Assembly (NCBI GenBank): GCA_937139415.1
Contig: CAKZPS010000040.1
Location: 1 to 47,864 of the forward strand
DNA length: 47,864 nt
From: an uncultured bacterium
GTDB taxonomy: Bacteria; Atribacterota; Atribacteria; Atribacterales; Caldatribacteriaceae
Reading direction: 5' to 3'
The notes below the pieces were generated by a model. It saw nothing but the letters and a program-made list of their open reading frames with translations. It searched no databases and was not told the DNA's origin. Within the stretch, counting starts at the first letter, position 1. Each line of letters opens with the position of its first letter. Position numbers and translations under genes: made by a program. Below, piece after piece: positions 9,706 to 42,474 of this stretch.

Positions 9706-11421
9706 GTGACGAGACGCTGGCAGATCCGCAAGGTAAATAAACACTATCTTTCGCGACTTGCCCAGGAACTCTCTGTTCCCCTTGCGGTTGCTCGGGTGCT
9801 CTTAAACCGGGGGATTACTACTCCGGAAATGGCGTGGGAATTTCTTGACCCCTCTCTTTCGCTCTTGGAGAAGGAATTTCAGAATCTTTCCGGTTTAGAT
9901 CAAGCAGTAAGAATTTTGGATCGAGCGGTCCAGGAACGGAAACGAATCGTTATTTTCGGTGACTATGATGTTGACGGTCTCACCGCGAGCGTGATTCTCT
10001 TTCGCTTGCTCCGACAATTTTCTCCTCAGGTAGAAATTTACCTCCCCAACCGTTTCCTCGAAGGCTATGGGGTTACCGAAAAGGCAGTAGAGACCATTAT
10101 CGAGCGGTATCATCCTGAGCTCCTCATTACCGTGGATTGCGGTATCCGAGATTGGGGAGGCATTGAAAAGCTTCGCCGTGCGGGAATCTCGGTTATCCTT
10201 ACCGATCATCATCTTCCTGATTTTTCTGCTCTACCATGTGCAGAGGCCATTGTCACGGGGTGGGATTTGCATGAACAAACCCTGAGGTTACCTCTCTCTG
10301 GAGCAGGAGTGGCTTTAGCTTTGGCCCATGCCTATGCCGAGTATCGGGGGAGCGGCGTCAACCCCTTAGAAGAGTATCTGTGGTTAGCATGTCTTGGAGC
10401 CATTGCCGACAGTGTTCCTCTTTTGGGAGTGAATCGGGTTATCGTCCGTTATGGTTTACAGGCCATCAATCGGAGGATTCCTTCTGGAGTGGAGGCATTG
10501 TTGGTGGCCAGTGGCTCGAAGAAACGTAAACTCGATGTGGAAGATTTAGAACATGTGATTATCCCTCGCTTGAATGCCGCTGGACGGGTAGAAGATCCGA
10601 GGTCAGCCTTAGAACTCTTTCTTGAGGAGAAAGAGGAGGCACTTCTTTCCCAGGCACAATATTTGCATGAGCTCAACTTGCGTCGTCAAAAAGAAGAAGA
10701 ACGAGTACGTGAAAGTATTATTCGGGAAGAAAGGTATCGACATTTTCTTGCTGATGATATCGTGGTTGTGGCGGGAGAAAATTGGAATATTGGTGTTCTT
10801 GGGATTGTAGCCACGCGCCTTGTCGATTATTGCAGGAAACCGGTGCTCGTTTTGAGTATTGGAGGGGATTTAGCGGTTGGTTCAGGGAGGAGCATCAAAG
10901 GCTTTCATCTTTTGGAGATACTTCGGAAAACCCAGGAAGAACGGGGATTGCTATTCCGTTTTGGAGGACACGAAATGGCGGTGGGCCTTCGCTTGCATCG
11001 TGACCGGGTTGCAGCTTTTCGCGATTTTATTAACGAGCGGTTTGGAGCCGAGGCGCGCCGTATTTGCGAAGTTCGCGAAGGTCTTGTCGTTGATGCCCTC
11101 CTCGATTTGCAAGAAGTGAACGAAAAATTTTTGCAGTATGTGGAGCGTTGCCAACCTTTTGGAGAGCGAAACCCTCGTCCGCTCTTTGCGGCACTGAATG
11201 TCTCTTTGATCAATCAGTGGAGTTTTGGAAAGAGACGGGAACACTTGGGATTTGTGGCTGCGCAAGATCGGGGGAAGCGCGAAGTAGTCATCTTTGGAGG
11301 AAGAGAGAGAGCCCAGGAGCTCTCTCGCAGTATGGTAGTAGATCTGGCTTTCCAAGTCGAGCGAGATTTTTTTTCTCAATATCCCTATCTCAAGGTGTGT
11401 GATTGGCGAATCAAGAAATGA
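9706..11421 (+). CDS. recJ: Single-stranded-DNA-specific exonuclease RecJ
   Basis: RecJ, 571 residues, a 5'-3' single-strand exonuclease of the DHH phosphoesterase superfamily used in recombination and repair. Motifs are IFGDYDVDGLTASVILFRLL (motif I), LLITVDCGIRD, VILTDHHLPD (the DHH motif), AGVALALAHAY, the LACLGAIADSVPL segment and IIPRLNAAGR. The DHHA1 domain contains SGRSIKGFHLLEIL and FGGHEMAVGL. I choose GTG 9706, which lies 7 bases after GGAGG; an earlier in-frame GTG at 9655 would overlap secF by 47 bases and add residues without family similarity. It is followed 12 bases later by apt. Confidence 0.95.
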   Translation: MTRRWQIRKVNKHYLSRLAQELSVPLAVARVLLNRGITTPEMAWEFLDPSLSLLEKEFQNLSGLDQAVRILDRAVQERKRIVIFGDYDVDGLTASVILFRLLRQFSPQVEIYLPNRFLEGYGVTEKAVETIIERYHPELLITVDCGIRDWGGIEKLRRAGISVILTDHHLPDFSALPCAEAIVTGWDLHEQTLRLPLSGAGVALALAHAYAEYRGSGVNPLEEYLWLACLGAIADSVPLLGVNRVIVRYGLQAINRRIPSGVEALLVASGSKKRKLDVEDLEHVIIPRLNAAGRVEDPRSALELFLEEKEEALLSQAQYLHELNLRRQKEEERVRESIIREERYRHFLADDIVVVAGENWNIGVLGIVATRLVDYCRKPVLVLSIGGDLAVGSGRSIKGFHLLEILRKTQEERGLLFRFGGHEMAVGLRLHRDRVAAFRDFINERFGAEARRICEVREGLVVDALLDLQEVNEKFLQYVERCQPFGERNPRPLFAALNVSLINQWSFGKRREHLGFVAAQDRGKREVVIFGGRERAQELSRSMVVDLAFQVERDFFSQYPYLKVCDWRIKK

Positions 11422-11946: not shown

Positions 11947-11994
11947 GGAGAGAAAGTACGTGTCAAGCGTAGCGGGGTAGAAACCATCGATGGT

Positions 11995-14142
11995 TTGATC
12001 AACAAGGTTAAAGAATACCACCCCACTTGCAACGAGGCGCTCATTCGGCGGGCATATGAGTTTGCCGCTCAGGCTCACGAGGGACAGATGCGTCTCTCCG
12101 GTGAGCCTTATATTTTTCATCCTCTGGCGGTGGCCCTCATTTTGGCCGAGCTCAAAATGGACGAAGTGAGTATTGCTGCGGCTTTACTTCACGATGTTTT
12201 AGAAGATAGTGCCGTTACCCACCAGGAGATCGAAGCTCAGTTCGGGAACAAAATCGCTGCCTTAGTGCAGGGGATGACCAAGCTCAATATCGATTTGGGA
12301 ACTCCGGCCAAAGAGCGGGAGGTAGAAAATTACCGTCGCATGCTTTTGGCAGTAGCTGCTTCGCAGGAGCTGCGACTCATCATCATTAAATTGGCCGATC
12401 GTCTCCACAACATGCGGACCCTCAAGTATCAGTACCGGGAAAAAAAGGAAGAGATTGCTCGGGAGACTTTGGAAATTTTTGCCCCTATTGCCCATCGTTT
12501 GGGGATTAATACCATCCAGGTGGAATTAGAGAATTTGAGCCTCTTTTTCCTTGATCCAGAAGCGTATTGCACCATTCAGCGGGGTGTGGAACGTTTACGA
12601 AAAGACCGAGAGGCTCTGATTGAAGAGGCGAAGATAGTTTTGACCGAAGAGCTCAAGCGGGTGAGCATCAAAGCAGAAATCCAAAGCCGTTTCAAACACA
12701 TTTACAGTATTTATAAGAAACTCCGTCGACAGAATCTTGCCTTAGAGGATCTCCACGATTTGGCAGCCATGCGGGTGATCACGAATACCAAGGATGAGTG
12801 TTACACCGTTTTGGGGATTGTTCACGATTTGTGGGTCCCGGTGGTTGGTCGTTTTCGCGACTATATCGCGGTGCCGAAATCCAATCAGTACCAGTCCCTC
12901 CATACCACAGTTATCGGACCGCGAGGTTTTCCCATGGAAGTACAGATTCGGAGCTGGAATATGCACTACGTTGCCGAATACGGTGTAGCTTCTCATTGGC
13001 ACTACAAGGAAGGGAAGGCTGCTAAAGAACAGAGCACTTTCGATGCCCACATCAGCTGGCTCAAGCAACTGCTCGACTTGGAACAAGACCTGCAGAGCGC
13101 CAGCGAATTCATGGAGAGTCTCAAGATCAGTCTATTCGATGACGAAGTGTACGTTTTCACTCCCCGCGGCGATCTCAAAACCCTGCCTCGGGGTGCCACT
13201 CCAATCGATTTTGCCTACCTCATCCATACCGAAGTAGGCAATAGTTGTGTCGGTGCCAAGGTCAATCACCACATGGTACCCTTGAGCTACGAATTGAAGA
13301 GTGGTGACATTGTGGAAATTATTACCTCTCGTTCTGCTTCCGGTCCTACGCCGGAGTGGTTGAAATTTGCTAAAACCCCCGGGGCGAGGAATAAAATTCG
13401 TGCCTTCTTGCGCAAGAAGAATCGAGAAGAGAATCGAGAGAAAGGTAAGGTTACCTTTGAACGGGAATTGAGTAAATACCCATTGAGCCCGGAAGAAAAG
13501 AGTCTCTTTGCCTCCAATCTCGACCATTTCATGAGAGAGAATCACCTGGAGAGTCTCGATGATCTCCATGTGGCGATTGGTGAAGGACGATATAAAGCAC
13601 GGAAACTGGTGAACCAATTGATTCCTTACGCCATTCGAAAGAAGTGGCAGGAGAGTCACAAGGCCATTACCAAACCTGTGAAGCGGGAAGAAGAGAGCGT
13701 GCTCATCCAAGGGACTTCAGGAATCGAAGCCCGTTTAGCACGTTGCTGTACCCCGGTTCCCGGGGATAGCATTGTTGCCTTTGTGACTCAAGGGCGGGGT
13801 ATTACCGTTCATCGCAGTGATTGTCTCAATCTACAGCATCTTTCCGGTAACGGGCGATTCATCGAAGCGACCTGGAAACCGGGTTTAACCCTCGCCTTCA
13901 ATGCCGGTGTGATCGTGGAAGCTTTAGATCGACCCCGGCTCCTTGCTGACGTTACCGGAGTGGTAGCCGGATGTCAAATGGAGATCCGGGCAGCAAAGGC
14001 GCGCACGGTCGGTGATGAAGCCCATATCTATCTCCTCTTGGAAGTGCATGACAAAGAGGAATTGGATACTCTCTTCCGGGAATTACGTCGGGTTGCCAAT
14101 GTGAAACACGTTCGGAGAGGTGGTGCGTTCTACCTGAAATGA
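11995..14142 (+). CDS. rel: Bifunctional (p)ppGpp synthetase/hydrolase (RelA/SpoT homologue)
   Basis: Long RSH protein of 715 residues that makes and degrades the stringent-response alarmone. Domains in order are an HD hydrolase domain ([15 protein letters not shown], then [10 protein letters not shown] and [10 protein letters not shown]), a synthetase domain ([15 protein letters not shown], then [11 protein letters not shown] and [13 protein letters not shown]), a TGS domain ([20 protein letters not shown]), a zinc-finger/helical region with [10 protein letters not shown], and a C-terminal ACT domain. Because the HD motifs are intact, hydrolysis is expected as well as synthesis. TTG 11995 is the only in-frame conventional start but has no Shine-Dalgarno; a good site and GTG at 11960 lie one frame away (see findings). 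It overlaps dtd by ATGA. Confidence 0.95.
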
Positions 14143-20400: not shown

Positions 20401-20429
20401 TTGACAAAGGAGAAATCGTGTTGTATATT
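20401..20429 (+). promoter_or_regulatory. Promoter of the lacI-opp-fucosidase operon
   Basis: A perfect -35 TTGACA (20401-20406) and a near-perfect -10 TATATT (20424-20429) are separated by exactly 17 bases. The predicted transcription start near 20436 falls inside the adjacent dyad, as expected for a LacI-repressed promoter. Recognised by eye. Confidence 0.75.
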
Positions 20430-20434
20430 GAGAA

Positions 20435-20454
20435 AAATTATTGCGCAAAAAATT
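20435..20454 (+). promoter_or_regulatory. Putative LacI-family operator
   Basis: An imperfect palindrome is centred on TTGCGCAA (20441-20448), with AT-rich arms AAATTA and AAAATT that match at four of six outer positions. A central CG in an AT-flanked dyad is typical of LacI-family operators. It overlaps the predicted transcription start, so it would repress by blocking initiation. Inference from position and symmetry only. Confidence 0.55.
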
Positions 20455-20501
20455 TCTTAGAACTTATAGCCCTAGATATGTAAGACGGGGAGGAAGAACC
20501 T

Positions 20502-21593
20502 ATTAAGGGTGATCTTGAAAAGTGGAGAAATAAAAAGAAACCCACAATCAGTGATGTGGCAAAGTTGGCAGGGGTTTCTCCTTCGACGGTGTCACACGTA
20601 CTCAATAAGACTCGTTTCGTTGCCCCAGAAACTGAAAGAAAGGTCTTAGAAGCGATTAAGCTGCTCAGTTACAAAAAACATTCGCCTTTCGCTGCATTGC
20701 AAGATCAAAAGCTGCGGGTCATTGGTTTTATTATTCCTCAAATACACAACGTCTTTTGGTTACGTATTATTCGTTCTCTGGAATTCCATCTTTCGCAATA
20801 CGGCTACCATCTTTTTTTGGGATGTAGTTATGGTAACCCAGAGCGAGAAGTTGAACTTGTCGAGACGATGCGTCAAAGCGGTATAGAGGGAGTTATTGTA
20901 GCTACATGTCTTAATAGTTTGGAGACCGATCTTCCCTCGGTTTTTCGAGAGGAATTACTCAGATTTCTAAGCGAACAAGCTGTTTTTCTCGACACTGCTC
21001 CGTTGAATAGTGATCTTGACTTCGTAGGAGTAAATAACGAAGAAAGTGCTTATCGTCTGACTAATTTACTTATTGAAGCAGGATGTAAAAAGTTGGGTAT
21101 GATTAACGGTGAACCAACCATGCTTACAGCACGAGAACGTGCTGCGGGATTTTGGCAGGCAGTACGAGAAAAAAACTGTGAAGTTCGGGAAGAACATATC
21201 TTTTTAGGGAAGGGCTTGAGTAAAAAGGTAGGTATTGAGGGAGGGAAAAAATTTTTATCCCTTCTTGATCCTCCTACTGGGCTCTTCCTTGCGAGTGGAA
21301 ACATCACGGTAGGTTTTTTGGAAGCGCTTCGCAACAAAAAGATCACCCTGGAAAACGGACCCTGTATTGTTGGCTTCGATGACATCGAATGGACACCAAC
21401 CATTGAGCCCTTCCTCACCTGTGCGGTTCAGCCGGCCTGGGACATGGGTGAAGAAGCGGTAAGCTTGCTTTTGGATAAGTTGAATGGTGACCGCCGTGGA
21501 GCGGCGCGAGAAGTGCGTCTGAAGTGTGAAATCCTGGTGCGAAGATTGTGGCAGAAAGAAAGAAAAGATAAAAGCGATGAATCTAAGGATTGA
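20502..21593 (+). CDS. LacI-family transcriptional regulator
   Basis: LacI-family repressor. The helix-turn-helix is PTISDVAKLAGVSPSTVSHVL, followed by the hinge region APETERKVLEAIKLLSY and a periplasmic-binding-protein-like sensor domain (RVIGFIIPQIHNVFWLRIIR, GVNNEESAYRLT, GFDDIEWT). Strikingly, no ATG, GTG or TTG precedes the helix-turn-helix in frame: the first in-frame stop is TAA 20481, and the only GTG (20556) lies inside the DNA-binding helix. GGGGAGG at 20487-20493 sits 8 bases before ATT 20502, which I take as the start (363 residues). The gene leads the fucosyl-oligosaccharide operon and probably represses it until an oligosaccharide or fucose-derived ligand binds. Confidence 0.85.
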   Translation: MKGDLEKWRNKKKPTISDVAKLAGVSPSTVSHVLNKTRFVAPETERKVLEAIKLLSYKKHSPFAALQDQKLRVIGFIIPQIHNVFWLRIIRSLEFHLSQYGYHLFLGCSYGNPEREVELVETMRQSGIEGVIVATCLNSLETDLPSVFREELLRFLSEQAVFLDTAPLNSDLDFVGVNNEESAYRLTNLLIEAGCKKLGMINGEPTMLTARERAAGFWQAVREKNCEVREEHIFLGKGLSKKVGIEGGKKFLSLLDPPTGLFLASGNITVGFLEALRNKKITLENGPCIVGFDDIEWTPTIEPFLTCAVQPAWDMGEEAVSLLLDKLNGDRRGAAREVRLKCEILVRRLWQKERKDKSDESKD

Positions 21594-21612: not shown

Positions 21613-21726
21613 GTGTCCCTGGAAAGCAAGTTTCTCCCTTTCCGTTGGGACGGTAGGTATGTCCGTTTTGTGGTACCTGAAGTGGAGGGACACTCAATGG
21701 TTGTGGTGAAACGAAAGGAGGAGTGA
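21613..21726 (+). CDS. Small ORF coupled to the transporter, 37 residues
   Basis: A GTG (21613) 5 bases after AAGGAGGTGA opens a 37-residue frame whose stop TGA (21724-21726) is 2 bases before the binding-protein start. The peptide has alternating beta-like polar and hydrophobic residues (FRWDGRYVRFVVPEVEGHSM) reminiscent of the last strands of a C-terminal beta-sandwich domain in glycoside hydrolases. It could be a genuine small protein, a translational coupling leader, or the remnant of a deleted glycosidase. No family is recognised. Confidence 0.4.
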   Translation: MSLESKFLPFRWDGRYVRFVVPEVEGHSMVVVKRKEE

Positions 21727-21728
21727 AG

Positions 21729-23612
21729 ATGAGAATTGGGAGACTGTTTGTAATTCTTTTGGTGGGGATGGTGTTAGGTTGTTGGTGTGCTGCTGCTTTC
21801 GCTCAGCCTCGCGAACAGACATTGATCCACGACATGCTTGGCAGTGTAGTGGGTACACCTGACGATTTCAATACTTGGGCCGGTTGGAGATGGCCACACA
21901 GAGGATTGCACCAATACTGCTTGGAGCCGCTGTGGATTGCTGAACCCGCTACCGGTGAGATATTGCCTCTGCTCGCAAAGGAGTGGCCACCGTCGTACAA
22001 TAAAGACTTCACGAAAATGACAATTCGTCTTCAGGAGGGCATCGCCTGGAATGACGGCGTACCATTCACTGCTGACGATATTGTCTTTACCGTTGAGCTT
22101 CACAAAAACACTCCGGAGCTCCTTATGCATGGGCCCATTGCCGAATATGTGAAAGAGATTCGAAAGCTTGACGACTACACGGTTGAAATAGAGCTTTCAA
22201 AGCCCAACTCTCGGTTCCACGCCTATCTGCTCGACCGATGGGGAGCCTTAAGACCAATGCCAAAACACGTTTTCGAAAAGATTGAAGACCCTGTGAAGTT
22301 CAGCTTCAACCCACCGATAGGTACCGGACCATACAAGTTACATTCCTACGATCCATCCGGGTACTGGACCACTTGGGTGAAGCGAGAAGACTGGGACAAG
22401 AGTGCCACAGGAAAGCTCTATGGAGAACCAAAACCCGTGTACATCACTGCCCGTGATTTCGCGTCAGAAGAGGCCAGGATTCTTGCTCTTATGACGGGCG
22501 AGCTCGATATGGCGTTCCTCTCGGTTGAGGGTATGAAAGCAGCAATGAAAGCACCGCACGTGAGAACATGGCGGCGTGAGTGGCCTTGGAACTGCAATAT
22601 CGACCCCTTTGTACCGGGAATCGTCTTCAACAACCTCAAGCAACCCTACAGCATCAAAGAGGTGCGATGGGCTCTTGCTCTGGCGATCAACATTGAGGAG
22701 TTCATGAGTGTAGCCGTCGACTTCATGGCTCCGGTAAGCCCAATCCACCTTCCCCCCGTTCCAGCCTATGAAAAAGCATACTTTGGGCCGATGCTTGAGT
22801 GGTTACGTGATTTTGAGTTGGACTTAGGCAATGGTGAGAAGTTTAAGCCTTTTGATACGGAAGTGCCCTTTAAACTTGCAGAGGCTGCGAAGAAAAGAGG
22901 TTATCCCGTTCCGGACGCCCCCGAGGCGATTCGATCCATATTTGGAGTTGGGTGGTGGAAATATGCTCCCGATATTGCGGAAAAGCTCCTCAAAAAACAC
23001 GGGTTCTATAAGGACGAATTTGGCAGGTGGCGTCTTCCCGATGGAACTCTTTGGACCATTCAGCTTTTGAGCACTTCTGATCCCGGGACTTTCGAGCACA
23101 GGACCATGCTGGGAGCAGCTGACCAATGGCGGAAGTTCGGTATAGGGGTAGAGACTTGGACTCCAGTGGGATTCATCACTCTGAACTTGCTTGGTGAGTT
23201 TGACGTCTCAACCACGTGGACTGCGCTCGAGCCATGGGGCGCTGGTGTGGACCTTTACCGCACGCTTTGGCCCTTCCACTCCTCGCAAGTGAGGCCAATA
23301 GGCGAGTACGTTGCTAACGCTCCAGGTGGTGCTGCACGCTGGTCGGATCCACGAATGGATGACATCATCGGGCGTATGGAAGCAGTCGATATATCTGATG
23401 AAGAAACCACTGTTACCCTCGGCCTTGAGGCATTGAAAATTCTCGTTGAAGAAATGCCCACGGTTCCTATATATGGTGGAATTGCCTTCCTGGCGTGGAG
23501 TGAGACGTACTGGACGAATTACCCTGGTGCTGAGAATCTCTATCCTAATCCTTGGCATTGGTGGCCCAACTTCAAGCTCGCTTTGCCTTTCTTGAAGCCA
23601 GCGAAAGAGTAG
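21729..23612 (+). CDS. ABC transporter substrate-binding protein, family 5 (oligopeptide/oligosaccharide)
   Basis: Solute-binding protein of 627 residues, SBP_bac_5 type. A signal sequence occupies about residues 1-28, ending AAAFAQ; a Cys at GMVLGC could alternatively be a lipobox. Family segments are the EPLWIAEPATGEILPLLAKE region, FTKMTIRLQEGIAWNDGVPF and TADDIVFTVEL near residues 95-125, and a large second domain. In hyperthermophiles such as Thermotoga, proteins of this class next to glycosidases bind oligosaccharides rather than peptides. The neighbouring fucosidase suggests a fucosylated glycan ligand, by inference. ATG 21729 is about 6 bases after AAAGGAGGAG; the GTG at 21723 overlaps that site. 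Confidence 0.88.
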   Translation: MRIGRLFVILLVGMVLGCWCAAAFAQPREQTLIHDMLGSVVGTPDDFNTWAGWRWPHRGLHQYCLEPLWIAEPATGEILPLLAKEWPPSYNKDFTKMTIRLQEGIAWNDGVPFTADDIVFTVELHKNTPELLMHGPIAEYVKEIRKLDDYTVEIELSKPNSRFHAYLLDRWGALRPMPKHVFEKIEDPVKFSFNPPIGTGPYKLHSYDPSGYWTTWVKREDWDKSATGKLYGEPKPVYITARDFASEEARILALMTGELDMAFLSVEGMKAAMKAPHVRTWRREWPWNCNIDPFVPGIVFNNLKQPYSIKEVRWALALAINIEEFMSVAVDFMAPVSPIHLPPVPAYEKAYFGPMLEWLRDFELDLGNGEKFKPFDTEVPFKLAEAAKKRGYPVPDAPEAIRSIFGVGWWKYAPDIAEKLLKKHGFYKDEFGRWRLPDGTLWTIQLLSTSDPGTFEHRTMLGAADQWRKFGIGVETWTPVGFITLNLLGEFDVSTTWTALEPWGAGVDLYRTLWPFHSSQVRPIGEYVANAPGGAARWSDPRMDDIIGRMEAVDISDEETTVTLGLEALKILVEEMPTVPIYGGIAFLAWSETYWTNYPGAENLYPNPWHWWPNFKLALPFLKPAKE

Positions 23613-23621
23613 AAAGGAGTT

Positions 23622-23666
23622 ACAAGACCGCTACTCGGGAGTTCTTTCCCCGAGTAGCGGTCTTGT
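23622..23666 (+). promoter_or_regulatory. Perfect stem-loop between binding protein and permease genes
   Basis: Two 18-base arms (23622-23639 and 23649-23666) are perfectly complementary around a 9-base loop. No T-run follows, and the permease Shine-Dalgarno GGGAGG begins a few bases later. Such hairpins after a binding-protein gene usually stabilise its mRNA or act as a partial terminator, giving more binding protein than permease. Confidence 0.75.
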
Positions 23667-23680
23667 GGGAGGATTAAAGG

Positions 23681-24691
23681 ATGATGAAATTCTTAAAAGA
23701 ATATTTGGTGCCGAGGTTAATACAGTACTTTTTTGTGGTCTTTCTGGGTTTAACCTTGGTATTTTTTGTCCCTCGGCTGTTGCCCCAAGACCCGATTCGG
23801 GAAATCGTTGGCCAGTTTCAGCAGCATGGTGCAGGGCTTGACGCAAAAACTGTGGAGACCATGGTAGCTACCTTTCGGGAACTTTTTGGCCTGTCGGGGT
23901 CTTGGCACGAGCAGTATTGGTCTTTTTGGAAACGCATCATACGTTTTGATTTCGGTCCGTCCTTCTTTCGGTTTCCTACCCCGGTTTCGGAGCTCCTTTT
24001 GCGCTTTCTTCCCTGGACTTTGTGGATTATGCTCACCTCTACCTTTTTGGCTTGGCTTTTGGGAAACATTATTGGGGGTATCGCCGGATACTTCCCCGGT
24101 CGTCGTTGGTCGAGGCTTTTGGATGTTTTCAGTGTGGCAGTACGTCCTATCCCCTACTACACATTCGGGCTTATTCTCCTCATCTTTTTTGCCTACACTT
24201 GGAGGTTATTCCCCTTGGGAGGAGGAGTGAGCGTGGGAAGGAGCATAACCTTTAGTGTCGCTTCCTTAATAGATATTTTGCGACACTCCTTTTTGCCCAT
24301 GCTCACCTTGCTCGTTCTCAACGGCGTGGGTTGGTACCACCAAATGAAGCTTCTTGTGCAAAATGTGAAAGGTGAAGACTTCGTAAGATATGCTAAAGCT
24401 GGGGGAGTGAAACCTTGGTGGGTTATTTCCCAGTACGTCCTTCGGAACGCCATGCTCCCTCAAGTAACCGGGTTGGCCTTGGCCATAGGACAAAGCTACT
24501 CGGCAGCCATTATAGTGGAGATTGTTTTCTCCTATCCTGGCGTAGGGACGCTCCTCTATGAGGCGATTGCCAGAGCCGATTACAATCTCATTATGGGTAT
24601 AGCGGCGGTTTCTATTCTGACCGTCAGTACCTTAGTTTTGATTGTGGACCTTATCTATCCTCTTTTAGACCCGAGAGTACGATACCGATAG
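23681..24691 (+). CDS. ABC transporter permease, DppB/OppB type
   Basis: Inner-membrane permease of 336 residues with about six helices. Family features are the N-terminal LIQYFFVVFLGLTLVFFVPR, the EAA-like cytoplasmic loop ARYAKAGGVKP-type segment seen as YAKAGGVKPWWVISQYVLRN, and the C-terminal VEIVFSYPGVGTLLYEAI typical of DppB/OppB. It pairs with the next permease to form the channel. Start ATG 23681 lies 8 bases after GGGAGG; ATG 23684 is equally possible. Confidence 0.9.
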   Translation: MMKFLKEYLVPRLIQYFFVVFLGLTLVFFVPRLLPQDPIREIVGQFQQHGAGLDAKTVETMVATFRELFGLSGSWHEQYWSFWKRIIRFDFGPSFFRFPTPVSELLLRFLPWTLWIMLTSTFLAWLLGNIIGGIAGYFPGRRWSRLLDVFSVAVRPIPYYTFGLILLIFFAYTWRLFPLGGGVSVGRSITFSVASLIDILRHSFLPMLTLLVLNGVGWYHQMKLLVQNVKGEDFVRYAKAGGVKPWWVISQYVLRNAMLPQVTGLALAIGQSYSAAIIVEIVFSYPGVGTLLYEAIARADYNLIMGIAAVSILTVSTLVLIVDLIYPLLDPRVRYR

Positions 24692-24700
24692 CCCCTTGAG

Positions 24701-25546
24701 GTGGTGAAGGATAAGGTGTTTTGGAGAAACTACGACTATAAACTTACCTTAGGTGTTTTTTTTCTTCTATCGCTTTTGGTGTTAGCTCTCTTATCCTTTT
24801 TCTCGCCCTACGACCCGGTGAAATGGCTGCAGGTACAACGGGATCTCCCTCCCTCTTGGCCCCATATCCTGGGCACTAATTCCAAGGGGCAGGATGTTTT
24901 TTGGGAGGCGACTTTTGCGATACGGAACTCCTTGATCATTGCTCTAATCGCTGCCTCGGTTTCCCGAATCATCGCCTTGGTGGTTGGATTTGTGGCGGGG
25001 CACAAAGGAGGAACGGTTGACAGAATGGCCATGTCTTTAACCGATGGTATCTTGGTTTTGCCTCTCATCATGATGCTCGTTCTTGTAGCTTCCATCATGA
25101 AGGGGAAACTGGAACTCTGGGGGTTAGGCATTCTTCTGGCCTTTTTTGGGTGGCCATGGGATGCGCGAACCATACGGGCGCAGGTTTTGAGTCTTCGTGA
25201 GCGTGACTTTACAAAGACTTCCATCCTCTCTGGAAAGGGAACTCTGGCCATCGTGTTCGGAGAGTATTTCCCTCATATTACCCCTCTTCTTTTTTCTACC
25301 GTCCTCAATAATATGACCTGGTCCATTTCTTCAGAAATTACCTTAGCGGTTTTGGGACTGAACCGACTCGAGGTTCCTACCCTGGGAACCATGTTGTATT
25401 GGGCCATCCGTCGCCAAGCTCTGCTTTTAGGGTATTGGTGGTGGGTGTTTACGCCTGTTGCCCTTACCATTATCTTGCTCATAGGTCTTTACTTTGTGTC
25501 CATAGGTCTTTGCGAAAGTGGAAACCTCACTCTCAGTAGAAAATAA
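24701..25546 (+). CDS. ABC transporter permease, DppC/OppC type
   Basis: Second permease, 281 residues, about six helices. DppC/OppC features are the N-terminal FFSPYDPVKW segment, HILGTNSKGQDVFWE (compare LGTDxxGRDVxSR in the family), the EAA-like loop REFTKTSILSGKG-type region seen as RERDFTKTSILSGKGTLAIV, and EITLAVLGLNRLEVPTLGTM near the C-terminus. GTG 24701 is the first start; GTG 24704 or 24716 would also fit the weak Shine-Dalgarno. It follows the first permease after 9 bases. Confidence 0.88.
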   Translation: MVKDKVFWRNYDYKLTLGVFFLLSLLVLALLSFFSPYDPVKWLQVQRDLPPSWPHILGTNSKGQDVFWEATFAIRNSLIIALIAASVSRIIALVVGFVAGHKGGTVDRMAMSLTDGILVLPLIMMLVLVASIMKGKLELWGLGILLAFFGWPWDARTIRAQVLSLRERDFTKTSILSGKGTLAIVFGEYFPHITPLLFSTVLNNMTWSISSEITLAVLGLNRLEVPTLGTMLYWAIRRQALLLGYWWWVFTPVALTIILLIGLYFVSIGLCESGNLTLSRK

Positions 25547-25558
25547 GGTGAAACCATA

Positions 25559-26548
25559 ATGGCCACCGTACTAAAGACTCAGGATTTACAAGCAGGGTAC
25601 CTCCTTTTGACTCCTTATGGGGAGAGAGCTATACTTGCGGTTAACGGGGTAAACATAGAGATTTTCCATGAGGAGATCTATGGCATCGCCGGTGAAAGCG
25701 GCTCCGGCAAGACCACCCTCCTGAAAACGCTTTTTGGAGAGGTGGAGGTACCGCTTCGAGTCTTGGGGGGCAAGGTGTACTATTCTTTTGGGAATGAGTT
25801 CGTCGATGCCCTCCTCTTAAAGGAAGAGGAAAAGAGGCGCATCCGTTGGCGATACATCTCCTATATCCCTCAAGGCTCAATGAGTGTTTTTAATCCGGTT
25901 AAGCGGATTCACAGCACTTTTTTAGATTTTTTGAAGAGTCACGTTGAGGGAAAGGTCCAAGAGGAACTCTTTGAGTTGGTTAAAAAACACGTTAGTGCTT
26001 TGGGGTTACCAACCAAGGTACTGAGCGCTTATCCTCATCAGTTGTCGGGAGGAATGAAGCAGCGGTTGGCCATTGCTCTCGCTACCATCCTTAATCCCAA
26101 GGTAATACTCGCCGATGAGCCTACTACCGCCTTGGACGTGGTTGCCCAGAGAGCGGCGATTCAGCTTCTGAAGGACATTCAAAGGGAATACCGCAATACC
26201 ATCGTCATCGTTACTCACGACATGGGTATTCATGCCCATATGACCCATCGATTGGCCATAATGTATGCCGGAAGAATTGTGGAAGAGGGACCAACCTCCG
26301 TGATTCTTGACCAACCTCTCCACCCTTACACCCAGTACCTCATCGGTTCCTTGCCCACGATAGGTGACAAGACCTTCAGGGATAGCGTTCCCGGTGCGCC
26401 TCCCTCTTTTCTTGATTTGCCTCCTGGTTGTGCTTTTCATCCCCGATGTCCCCAAGTCTTTTCGGTATGCAAAACTCAAACACCGGAACTTGTAAACGTT
26501 GATGAGAGGCGTAAGGCAGCGTGTTGGCTTTGGATGGAGAGGGGGTGA
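25559..26548 (+). CDS. ABC transporter ATP-binding protein, DppD/OppD type
   Basis: ATPase of 329 residues. Walker A is GESGSGKTTLL, the Q-loop is YIPQGSMSVFNPVKR, the signature LSGGMKQRLAIALA, Walker B VILADEPTTALD and the H-loop VTHDMG. The C-terminal oligopeptide-transporter extension has the CAFHPRCP...C cysteine cluster that in DppD/OppD proteins can hold an iron-sulfur cluster. It is followed 4 bases after its stop by its partner ATPase. Confidence 0.92.
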   Translation: MATVLKTQDLQAGYLLLTPYGERAILAVNGVNIEIFHEEIYGIAGESGSGKTTLLKTLFGEVEVPLRVLGGKVYYSFGNEFVDALLLKEEEKRRIRWRYISYIPQGSMSVFNPVKRIHSTFLDFLKSHVEGKVQEELFELVKKHVSALGLPTKVLSAYPHQLSGGMKQRLAIALATILNPKVILADEPTTALDVVAQRAAIQLLKDIQREYRNTIVIVTHDMGIHAHMTHRLAIMYAGRIVEEGPTSVILDQPLHPYTQYLIGSLPTIGDKTFRDSVPGAPPSFLDLPPGCAFHPRCPQVFSVCKTQTPELVNVDERRKAACWLWMERG

Positions 26549-40662: not shown

Positions 40663-42474
40663 TCAAAATGCGCCTCCTCTCCCTCCGCCTGAACCCCTTC
40701 CTACTCCTCCACCTCCCCCCGAGAAGCCTCCTCTGAAACTACCCCCTTTCGTTGAAGTAGAACGAGTTACCGACGCCATAGCCGCTTGGTGTACGCCCAC
40801 TATTTCCCGACCGAGAAAATAGGGGAAAGGGGTATAGAAAGAGCGGTGTGTACTCTCTCTCTCCCATACTTCTTGGGGTACCAAGCGCTGTAAGTGATAG
40901 CGTACGGTATCAGCGATCCCTAAGGCTGTGGCGTAAATGAGATAGTGCTCCCAGAGGACAATCGACTCGGGTGGTTTTTGGGAAAGGAGGGAGAAGTCAC
41001 TGAGAAAGCGGGCAAAATTCTGCCACTTGCGCGTATATTCAAGACCTTGGGAAGTGAACCGGCCGAAAACGGTTTTGGGGAGCATGAGGATAGCTCCTCC
41101 TCCAAAGAAGAGGAGTGCTGAGACGATGGTGAGGAAGGGAACTAAGTGAGCGCTTTGAAGGCTTAGTGCGCCGAGTACGCCTATGGGGAAGAGCATCATG
41201 AGAAGGGCGAAAAACTTGGCTACGATGTTCACCCCGAAGCGGAAGTAACGGCGCTTTCTCATGGTTTGGAAAACGTTTTGTTGGTATCGACTCAGGGCGG
41301 TGTTGAAGAATCGGGCTTTGGCGAGGGAGCTCTCTATCTTTTTTCGGAGTTCGGCGAAATCGAACACCCCGTCGGATGAAAACTGGGTGAGGAGAGTGAG
41401 GAATTCTCTTTCTGAGGGAGAGAGGTGAGGAGGGGTAGCTTGAGTCTTGAGGACAATACCTTTCTTCTCCCCCGCTTCTTGAAACTCAATCAATCCCAAC
41501 TGGTAGAAGCGGAGGAGCACTGCCGACATCCCGTCGGCATCTACTCTCCCACCAAGGTTTTTCACTATGCCGTTGACGAGATCCGGAGGATCGTCATAAG
41601 GCAACTCTCGTTCGTAAATGCCTTGGTAGGCAATCCGCGGCTCTCGACCTCCTAAGAGAAAGAGGAGGGCGAATATTCCTCCACTGACAAGCAGGATAAT
41701 GACCCACATCAAGATATCTTTTCGTACACTGCGGGAGTATTCCTCCTCAATGCTCTGTATTTCGCTTTTCAAAAGGGTAGGGTTCTCTACTGCATAGGGC
41801 ATGTTCTTTTGGGGGGCAAAGAGGAAACGCGCCTCGGCAAAAGCCTGAGGAGGAAGCCTACGGGCAGTGAGAGTAATCCGATTCCCTTCTCTCTCTACTT
41901 TCGTAGCCGGATGAGGATAAACGGCTTGTACCTCCAGAGACTCGGGGAAGATAAAAATACCCTGCACTTCCTTGGCGGGGGCATCCCACTGTCCCCAGAA
42001 TTGGCGAAAGAGTTGGGCAATCTCGGGACCGTTCTCCACCACCCCTCGCACTACGTACTCTACATGGAGGATGACCTCGGGGTATTCTTGGGGGTTGAGA
42101 CGGATATTGCTCCCATAGGGTACAAGCCACACCCGAGCAGAGAATCCCCCCTCGTCCAGAGAGAGGAACTCCACTTTTTGGGTTTCGATTTTTTCCGTCC
42201 ACAGGTTGACGCCGTGGAAGGTGACATATCTCTCGGGGGTAATTTCCCGGAAGAGACCCCGAAAGGGTTTGCGCATCTTGTAGTGAATGGTCTCATGCAC
42301 TTCCATCTCCCCCGAGGGGAGGAGCCGCTCTTCGATGGTAGCTTTTTCAATGGAGTAGAGAGAGCGAAAATACCAAAGAAAAAGGGGGTTTCCGCCACCA
42401 TACTGGATCCCCACAAAAAGGAGAAGAAGCACTATTCCTCCAATAATCCGTCCGATAATCGCCTTTCCCCTCAT
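40663..42474 (-). CDS. DUF2207 domain membrane protein
   Basis: Predicted membrane protein of 603 residues of the DUF2207 family. An N-terminal hydrophobic helix (about residues 8-24) is followed by an extracytoplasmic beta-rich domain (MRKPFRGLFREITPERYVTF is the family segment), a helix near residues 250-275 (ILMWVIILLVSGGIFALLFLL), a cytoplasmic region and two further helices about residues 405-450. It ends in a Gly-rich tail (FSGGGGGVGRGSGGGRGGAF), a family trait. Function unknown. It is flanked by the strong terminator downstream and a broken cyclase gene upstream, is intact, and its upstream region runs into the end of that pseudogene. Confidence 0.85.
   Translation of the reverse strand: MRGKAIIGRIIGGIVLLLLFVGIQYGGGNPLFLWYFRSLYSIEKATIEERLLPSGEMEVHETIHYKMRKPFRGLFREITPERYVTFHGVNLWTEKIETQKVEFLSLDEGGFSARVWLVPYGSNIRLNPQEYPEVILHVEYVVRGVVENGPEIAQLFRQFWGQWDAPAKEVQGIFIFPESLEVQAVYPHPATKVEREGNRITLTARRLPPQAFAEARFLFAPQKNMPYAVENPTLLKSEIQSIEEEYSRSVRKDILMWVIILLVSGGIFALLFLLGGREPRIAYQGIYERELPYDDPPDLVNGIVKNLGGRVDADGMSAVLLRFYQLGLIEFQEAGEKKGIVLKTQATPPHLSPSEREFLTLLTQFSSDGVFDFAELRKKIESSLAKARFFNTALSRYQQNVFQTMRKRRYFRFGVNIVAKFFALLMMLFPIGVLGALSLQSAHLVPFLTIVSALLFFGGGAILMLPKTVFGRFTSQGLEYTRKWQNFARFLSDFSLLSQKPPESIVLWEHYLIYATALGIADTVRYHLQRLVPQEVWERESTHRSFYTPFPYFLGREIVGVHQAAMASVTRSTSTKGGSFRGGFSGGGGGVGRGSGGGRGGAF

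Follow-up and report, generated by a model that had tools for sequence, protein, structure and literature searches.

The gene at positions 20502-21593 of the window, a single contig of 47,864 bases, encodes a sugar-type repressor of the LacI family and probably begins at the ATT codon at 20502. The gene has an open frame and a helix-turn-helix (HTH) domain, no canonical start codon precedes that domain, and a ribosome site stands in front of the ATT; elsewhere in the lineage, too, ATT and ATC stand at the start position of genes. The genome to which the contig belongs comprises 2.32 Mb in 76 contigs. The features of the repressor gene are as follows.

20481-20483, forward strand: in-frame stop codon TAA, which bounds the open frame
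20487-20493, forward strand: Shine-Dalgarno sequence GGGGAGG, eight bases before the ATT
20502-20504, forward strand: proposed start codon ATT, with a ribosome site at the 74th percentile and the architecture of the ATT starts found in the lineage
20502-21593, forward strand: LacI-family repressor gene, 363 amino acids counted from the ATT, recognised by Pfam, the open frame and orthologues
20515-20517, forward strand: TTG in the +1 frame, the rival start, usable only with a frameshift of one base ahead of the HTH (the A run at 20532-20536 is one possible place)
20544-20675, forward strand: LacI HTH domain (PF00356), residues 15-58 counted from the ATT
20556-20558, forward strand: GTG, the first canonical codon in frame, inside helix 1, without a ribosome site

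The original prediction held that no ATG, GTG or TTG lies between the stop codon and the HTH, and this was borne out when the frame was read. The codons after the TAA are GAC GGG GAG GAA GAA CCT ATT AAG GGT GAT CTT GAA AAG, followed by TGG AGA AAT AAA AAG AAA CCC ACA ATC AGT GAT, and the first canonical codon is GTG 20556; the frame remains open through to the TGA at 21591-21593. The Shine-Dalgarno sequence was likewise found exactly where it had been placed. Pfam matched PF00356 to the HTH with 56.4 bits (cut-off 27, E 2.5e-15) and, behind it, PF13377 (E 9.1e-17), a periplasmic-binding-protein-like ligand domain. The gene thus combines the N-terminal LacI HTH and the ligand domain of the LacI family, and it resembles infC in having a required domain with no canonical in-frame start upstream of it and a strong Shine-Dalgarno sequence at the usual spacing. 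A mechanical list of open reading frames starts the protein at GTG 20556, within the first helix of the HTH. Translation from this codon, which would leave the DNA-binding domain incomplete, is highly improbable: although it is the first canonical codon in frame, it scores -2.15 in the model described below (3rd percentile), and a start there would truncate PF00356 and cost the protein part of helix 1, a helix that both orthologues have. We discarded it as a start for want of a ribosome site.

Candidate starts were scored with a ribosome-site model trained on 61 stretches of the same genome (1.03 Mb, window included) holding 790 genes, 787 of them with a chosen start; the model selects its own training starts. 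At most real starts a AAGGAGGT-like site is found 5 to 8 bases before the codon. The 16S rRNA of the relatives G002 and G017 ends in GGATCACCTCCTTTCT; a 16S gene was not found in the genome itself. ATT 20502 scored 4.33, which corresponds to the 74th percentile of the 787 starts and was reached at 0.42% of 2361 random positions within genes, at 0.62% of 11805 upstream positions and by 0.69% of 2886 ATT, ATC or ATA triplets upstream of genes, giving a likelihood ratio of about 21 against the upstream background. In an earlier model built on 161 genes the same codon stood at the 63rd percentile, and 0.9% of random positions matched it. When the leader was shuffled 4000 times with its dinucleotides preserved, 2941 of the shuffled leaders had no in-frame canonical start, and an equally good in-frame ATT, ATC or ATA appeared in 11 of these. 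Folding of the leader gave no unusual structure (z 0.73). Among the other codons nearby, GTG 20522 scored 1.58 and ATC 20547 scored 0.03.

We also considered whether TTG 20515 (or GTG 20509), in the +1 frame and not named in the original prediction, could be the true start, one base having been lost before the HTH through assembly error or a real mutation. The N-terminus read across such a shift, MKSGEIKKKPTISDVAKLAGVS, looks like an ordinary LacI start, and the one from TTG 20515 has a length closer to that of the orthologues. An indel close to a single start is conceivable too, since this assembly contains 14 frameshift junction rows, some of them probably a single event, in 431 kb of homology-covered sequence (204 kb of G014 gave 2 rows). 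However, the ribosome site of TTG 20515 is poor (score -0.33, 13th percentile, likelihood ratio 0.5), that of GTG 20509 scores 1.11 (likelihood ratio 1.8), and canonical starts that are open, out of frame and no worse than TTG 20515 turned up in 395 of the 2941 shuffled leaders. It is because of the poor site and the shuffles that we regard this explanation as unlikely; it would moreover turn the spacing of GGGGAGG, eight bases and ATT into a coincidence, and the remainder of the gene is open. A further reading is a start at TTG 20515 with the A run causing slippage or a programmed -1 frameshift; in its favour, the relA gene of the window (see below) has an arrangement that shifts in the same direction. 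This is highly improbable, as the run has only five A, with no stop codon, no in-frame classic slippery heptamer and no conservation, and the same poor ribosome site would have to serve.

Orthologues of the repressor were sought in 61 genomes and, at a stricter cut-off, in 50 of the phylum. Two true orthologues were found besides the gene itself: that of G002 (L038/L009, 69% identity) starts with GTG behind a Shine-Dalgarno sequence of its own, and that of G014 (L010, 54% identity) starts with ATG. Helix 1 is present in both. Since these codons are GTG and ATG, the start codon is not conserved in lacI, and the codon comparison that had been proposed as a check does not find the ATT kept; the leaders cannot be aligned by eye. 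A conserved class of start codon is found in the secretin, Rrf2 and infC genes described below and not in lacI. None of the 61 genomes searched was a second one of the same species or genus. The canonical orthologues would fit a gene that is, or recently was, an ordinary ATG gene whose start has been mutated or misread, and the same ribosome site would serve it. We hold this to be very unlikely: the lineage offers good support for ATT starts, so that no error needs to be invoked, and a real mutation of ATG to ATT would still leave ATT as the present start.

The rarity of the arrangement was gauged on a collection of LacI HTHs drawn from the genome itself, from related genomes and from one Bacillus contig, in which 109 rows were obtained and 5 off-target alignments removed (L022 (137), L036 (236), L117 (181), L128 (26) and L154 (53)). 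No ATG, GTG or TTG was present within 25 codons upstream in 3 of the 104 HTHs, namely the window gene, L158 (with a CTG in place) and L151, where the frame spans only 85 amino acids. Some LacI genes will have been missed because the HTH model grew from a single seed. L158 (G003:C13, around 31671) is itself a LacI-family gene with no ATG, GTG or TTG before its HTH and a CTG behind GGAGGTGA; a possible counterpart in G000 (L132, judged by eye) has ATG.

Codons of the AUU type were then found at the start position of three other genes of the lineage, two of which are represented here by the following loci.

L080, 13424-15154, reverse strand: secretin gene (with L281-L295), ATT at the start position
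L213, 6636-7073, forward strand: gene for an Rrf2-type regulator (with L251-L259), ATT or ATC at the start position

The secretin was matched in 18 of the 25 genomes searched, and 16 of these were read (G000-G007, G010 and G012-G018), the copies in G011 and G024 being split. In 16 of 16 genomes an ATT lies eight bases behind the Shine-Dalgarno sequence (GGGAGGGA site), and in none of the 16 is there an in-frame ATG, GTG or TTG between the upstream stop and this ATT; within the 25 codons after it an in-frame canonical codon occurs in 14, at varying places. The secretin start and the end of the gene before it overlap, in different frames. In the nine loci whose frames were compared (G000 included) the A of the ATT falls on a third codon position of the upstream gene, in a codon that otherwise varies; in the table of all 16 loci the A at the third base follows by construction, the ATT having been selected, whereas the presence of an ATT in all 16 is unforced. 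In other orders of the phylum, a secretin homologue was found in 12 of 22 genomes, matching from about query residue 140 on, with N-termini that cannot be aligned with the query; one of the 12 loci is cut off, and in all 11 readable ones an ATG lies in frame close to a Shine-Dalgarno-like site.

The Rrf2-type regulator was matched in 20 of 25 genomes and read in 19, a weak match in G007 and second matches (L270-L279) being left out. Its start position holds ATT in nine genomes (G000, G001, G002, G004, G005, G009, G011, G014 and G016) and ATC in one (G003), all of them from the families f1 and f4. In the nine genomes of f2 and f3 the same codon is ATG (G012, G013, G015, G017, G019, G020, G023 and G024) or, in G018, GTG. 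No canonical codon lies between stop and start in 8 of the 10 ATT or ATC genes; the exceptions, G003 and G005, have in-frame canonical codons at most 5 codons upstream of the start, close to the Shine-Dalgarno sequence. For infC, matched in 24 of 25 genomes, the 23 loci read all carry ATC (17) or ATA (6) eight bases after a GGAGG-like site; G019 did not fit the pattern. A start directly after GGAGGCG (ATA 17, ATT 5, GTA 1) was tried and rejected, the codon two further on having the usual spacing. Taken together, the secretin, Rrf2 and infC genes make it very likely that AUU-type starts are real in this lineage and maintained by selection. The window repressor shares their architecture of GGGGAGG, eight bases and ATT. 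The ATT start originally predicted is thus a probable one for the repressor gene, best supported by the strength and spacing of its ribosome site and by the conserved ATT, ATC and ATA starts in other genes of the same genome and its relatives.

Such starts are few, since a survey of the 1.03 Mb that disregarded codon identity found ATT at the best ribosome positions 6 times against 6.9 expected, i.e. no general excess. A blind search for genes without a decent canonical start returned 39 with a good ribosome site at some other codon, which was ATT in 4, AAA in 4 and TTA in 3; this is weak by itself, and two of the ATT cases, Rrf2 and the secretin, became strong once orthologues were read. In 13 of 125 orthologue pairs a canonical start backed by a fair ribosome site was lacking in both genomes; a strong ATT in both members of the pair was seen for the secretin alone. 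An ATT candidate at L086:1119, in a gene resembling uroporphyrinogen decarboxylase, and a CTG candidate in the gene preceding it were discarded as support, this contig end having several frameshift junctions. The same end (L086 1-5000, G000 C63) shows a run of broken or start-less genes, a sign of low assembly quality or of decay. At L208, around 10306-11248 on the reverse strand, a regulator-like gene has a likely TTG start that enters a G run out of frame with the body of the gene, through a frameshift, slippage or an error.

The surroundings of the repressor gene bear on its possible regulation.

20401-20429, forward strand: sigma-70-like promoter, TTGACA-17-TATATT, 11 of 12 consensus matches
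20443-20456, forward strand: operator-like GCGCAAANNNTTTC, a putative autoregulatory site just 3' of the -10 element
21723-26548, forward strand: ABC-transporter-like downstream genes, comprising a substrate-binding protein (21723-23612), two permeases and an ATPase

Promoter-like sites number 3 in the region against 2.5 expected, which makes the promoter weak evidence alone. The L038 orthologue has, by eye, TTGACT-17-TAGAAT at the corresponding place, and an exact GCGCAAANNNTTTC at 2966-2979, equally placed with respect to the promoter; these two operator-like sites are the source of the pattern. Other exact matches occur at 42261-42274 of the window and at 2956-2969 of L038, both on the minus strand. 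As L038 shares both the promoter layout and the site behind the -10 element, transcriptional autoregulation is suggested. The functions of the downstream genes were named from the look of the listed reading frames, and the transporter operon is the likely regulated target.

AUU use in the repressor gene, its low yield, its autoregulation and its target are what we infer from this arrangement. The strong GGGGAGG, at the distance usual in this genome, would recruit the ribosome to ATT 20502, where the initiator tRNA would start inefficiently on AUU and keep the repressor level low. The repressor would probably be autoregulated through the operator-like site just after its own promoter and probably control the downstream transporter operon. 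The infC gene is the textbook case of an AUU-type start, and the feedback by IF3 is specific to it. The analogy with infC drawn in the original prediction stands in that infC also lacks a canonical start here; translational autoregulation of the repressor is not expected from it. IF3 is encoded in this genome, and what is to be expected for the repressor is instead that its level is low and depends on the fidelity of IF3; autoregulation, if present, would more likely be transcriptional, via the putative operator.

The repressor would be a further member of the known genes with AUU starts, its interest raised by the recurrence of AUU-type starts in the lineage. The E. coli pcnB gene, which does not encode a transcription regulator, is reportedly a second case of a chromosomal AUU start, one that keeps expression limited; it resembles the repressor in its AUU and differs in its function. 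According to PMC5472188, IF3 represses non-canonical starts, the infC start is ATT in E. coli and ATC in Streptomyces, and Streptomyces sigR has an IF3-repressed GTC start. Like the window repressor, infC has an AUH codon behind a strong Shine-Dalgarno sequence; unlike it, infC is under translational autocontrol by its own product and its codon class is conserved, whereas the repressor orthologues are canonical. The sigR gene is likewise a regulator held low by a non-canonical start, though the codon is GTC and the product a sigma factor. In PMC13009471, cvfC1 (AUU) and ccpN (AUA) of S. aureus, the latter a regulator and the former possibly one, have strong extended Shine-Dalgarno sequences, and in poor medium their reporters reach about 10% of the level obtained with AUG. 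They belong to other families, and their starts were shown by ribosome profiling and reporters, while ours is deduced. The GTG start of E. coli lacI is described in PMC11445065 as giving less repressor, higher basal operon expression and faster adaptation to lactose; this too is a LacI-family repressor with a weaker start, but GTG is accepted by gene finders and AUU is not. No report of AUU starts in LacI, Rrf2 or secretin genes was found in searches of the open-licence PubMed Central literature.

We lean slightly towards a broader reading, in which this order would keep a set of genes (infC, the Rrf2 regulator, the secretin and perhaps some relA) on selected AUU, AUC or AUA starts with strong Shine-Dalgarno sites, as a general, IF3-tied way to hold regulators and secretion parts low, with the window repressor as a recent recruit. 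A conserved AUU in the secretin and Rrf2 genes would add to the few AUU genes known so far and makes testable the question whether weak initiation, policed by IF3, sets regulator levels across a lineage. Since gene finders work from ATG, GTG or TTG, repressors of this kind lose their DNA-binding N-terminus in annotation or are labelled as broken.

The window also contains a relA/spoT-like gene (11947-14139, forward strand) whose conserved part is not preceded by any canonical start in frame; a TTG lies just inside this part. A GTG with a Shine-Dalgarno sequence in the +1 frame opens a short reading frame (11960-11980) ending in GCG GGG TAG, relative to which the main frame is -1. A short frame ending in NNG-GGR-TAR was present in 14 of the 14 genomes read from f1, f2 and f4, G004 having no match. 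This recurrence makes an assembly error unlikely, and we dropped the gene as evidence of assembly indels. The arrangement makes relA a candidate for programmed -1 frameshifting at a stop codon, recalling prfB, in which the shift is +1. No in-frame canonical codon lies upstream in 10 of the 14; its presence in G001, G002, G005 and G012 weakens the case for frameshifting, and part of the conservation of the short frame may reflect the residues Gly-Val-Glu. Four relA genes of f3 (G015, G017, G020 and G024) have an in-frame ATG. The orthologues L330 and L333 (G018, G021) and L336, L337, L340 and L342 (G037, G032, G028, G046) have no in-frame canonical codon upstream either, and each carries an ATT (ATT AAA GTC GTA; ATT TCT CAx) behind a Shine-Dalgarno-like site.
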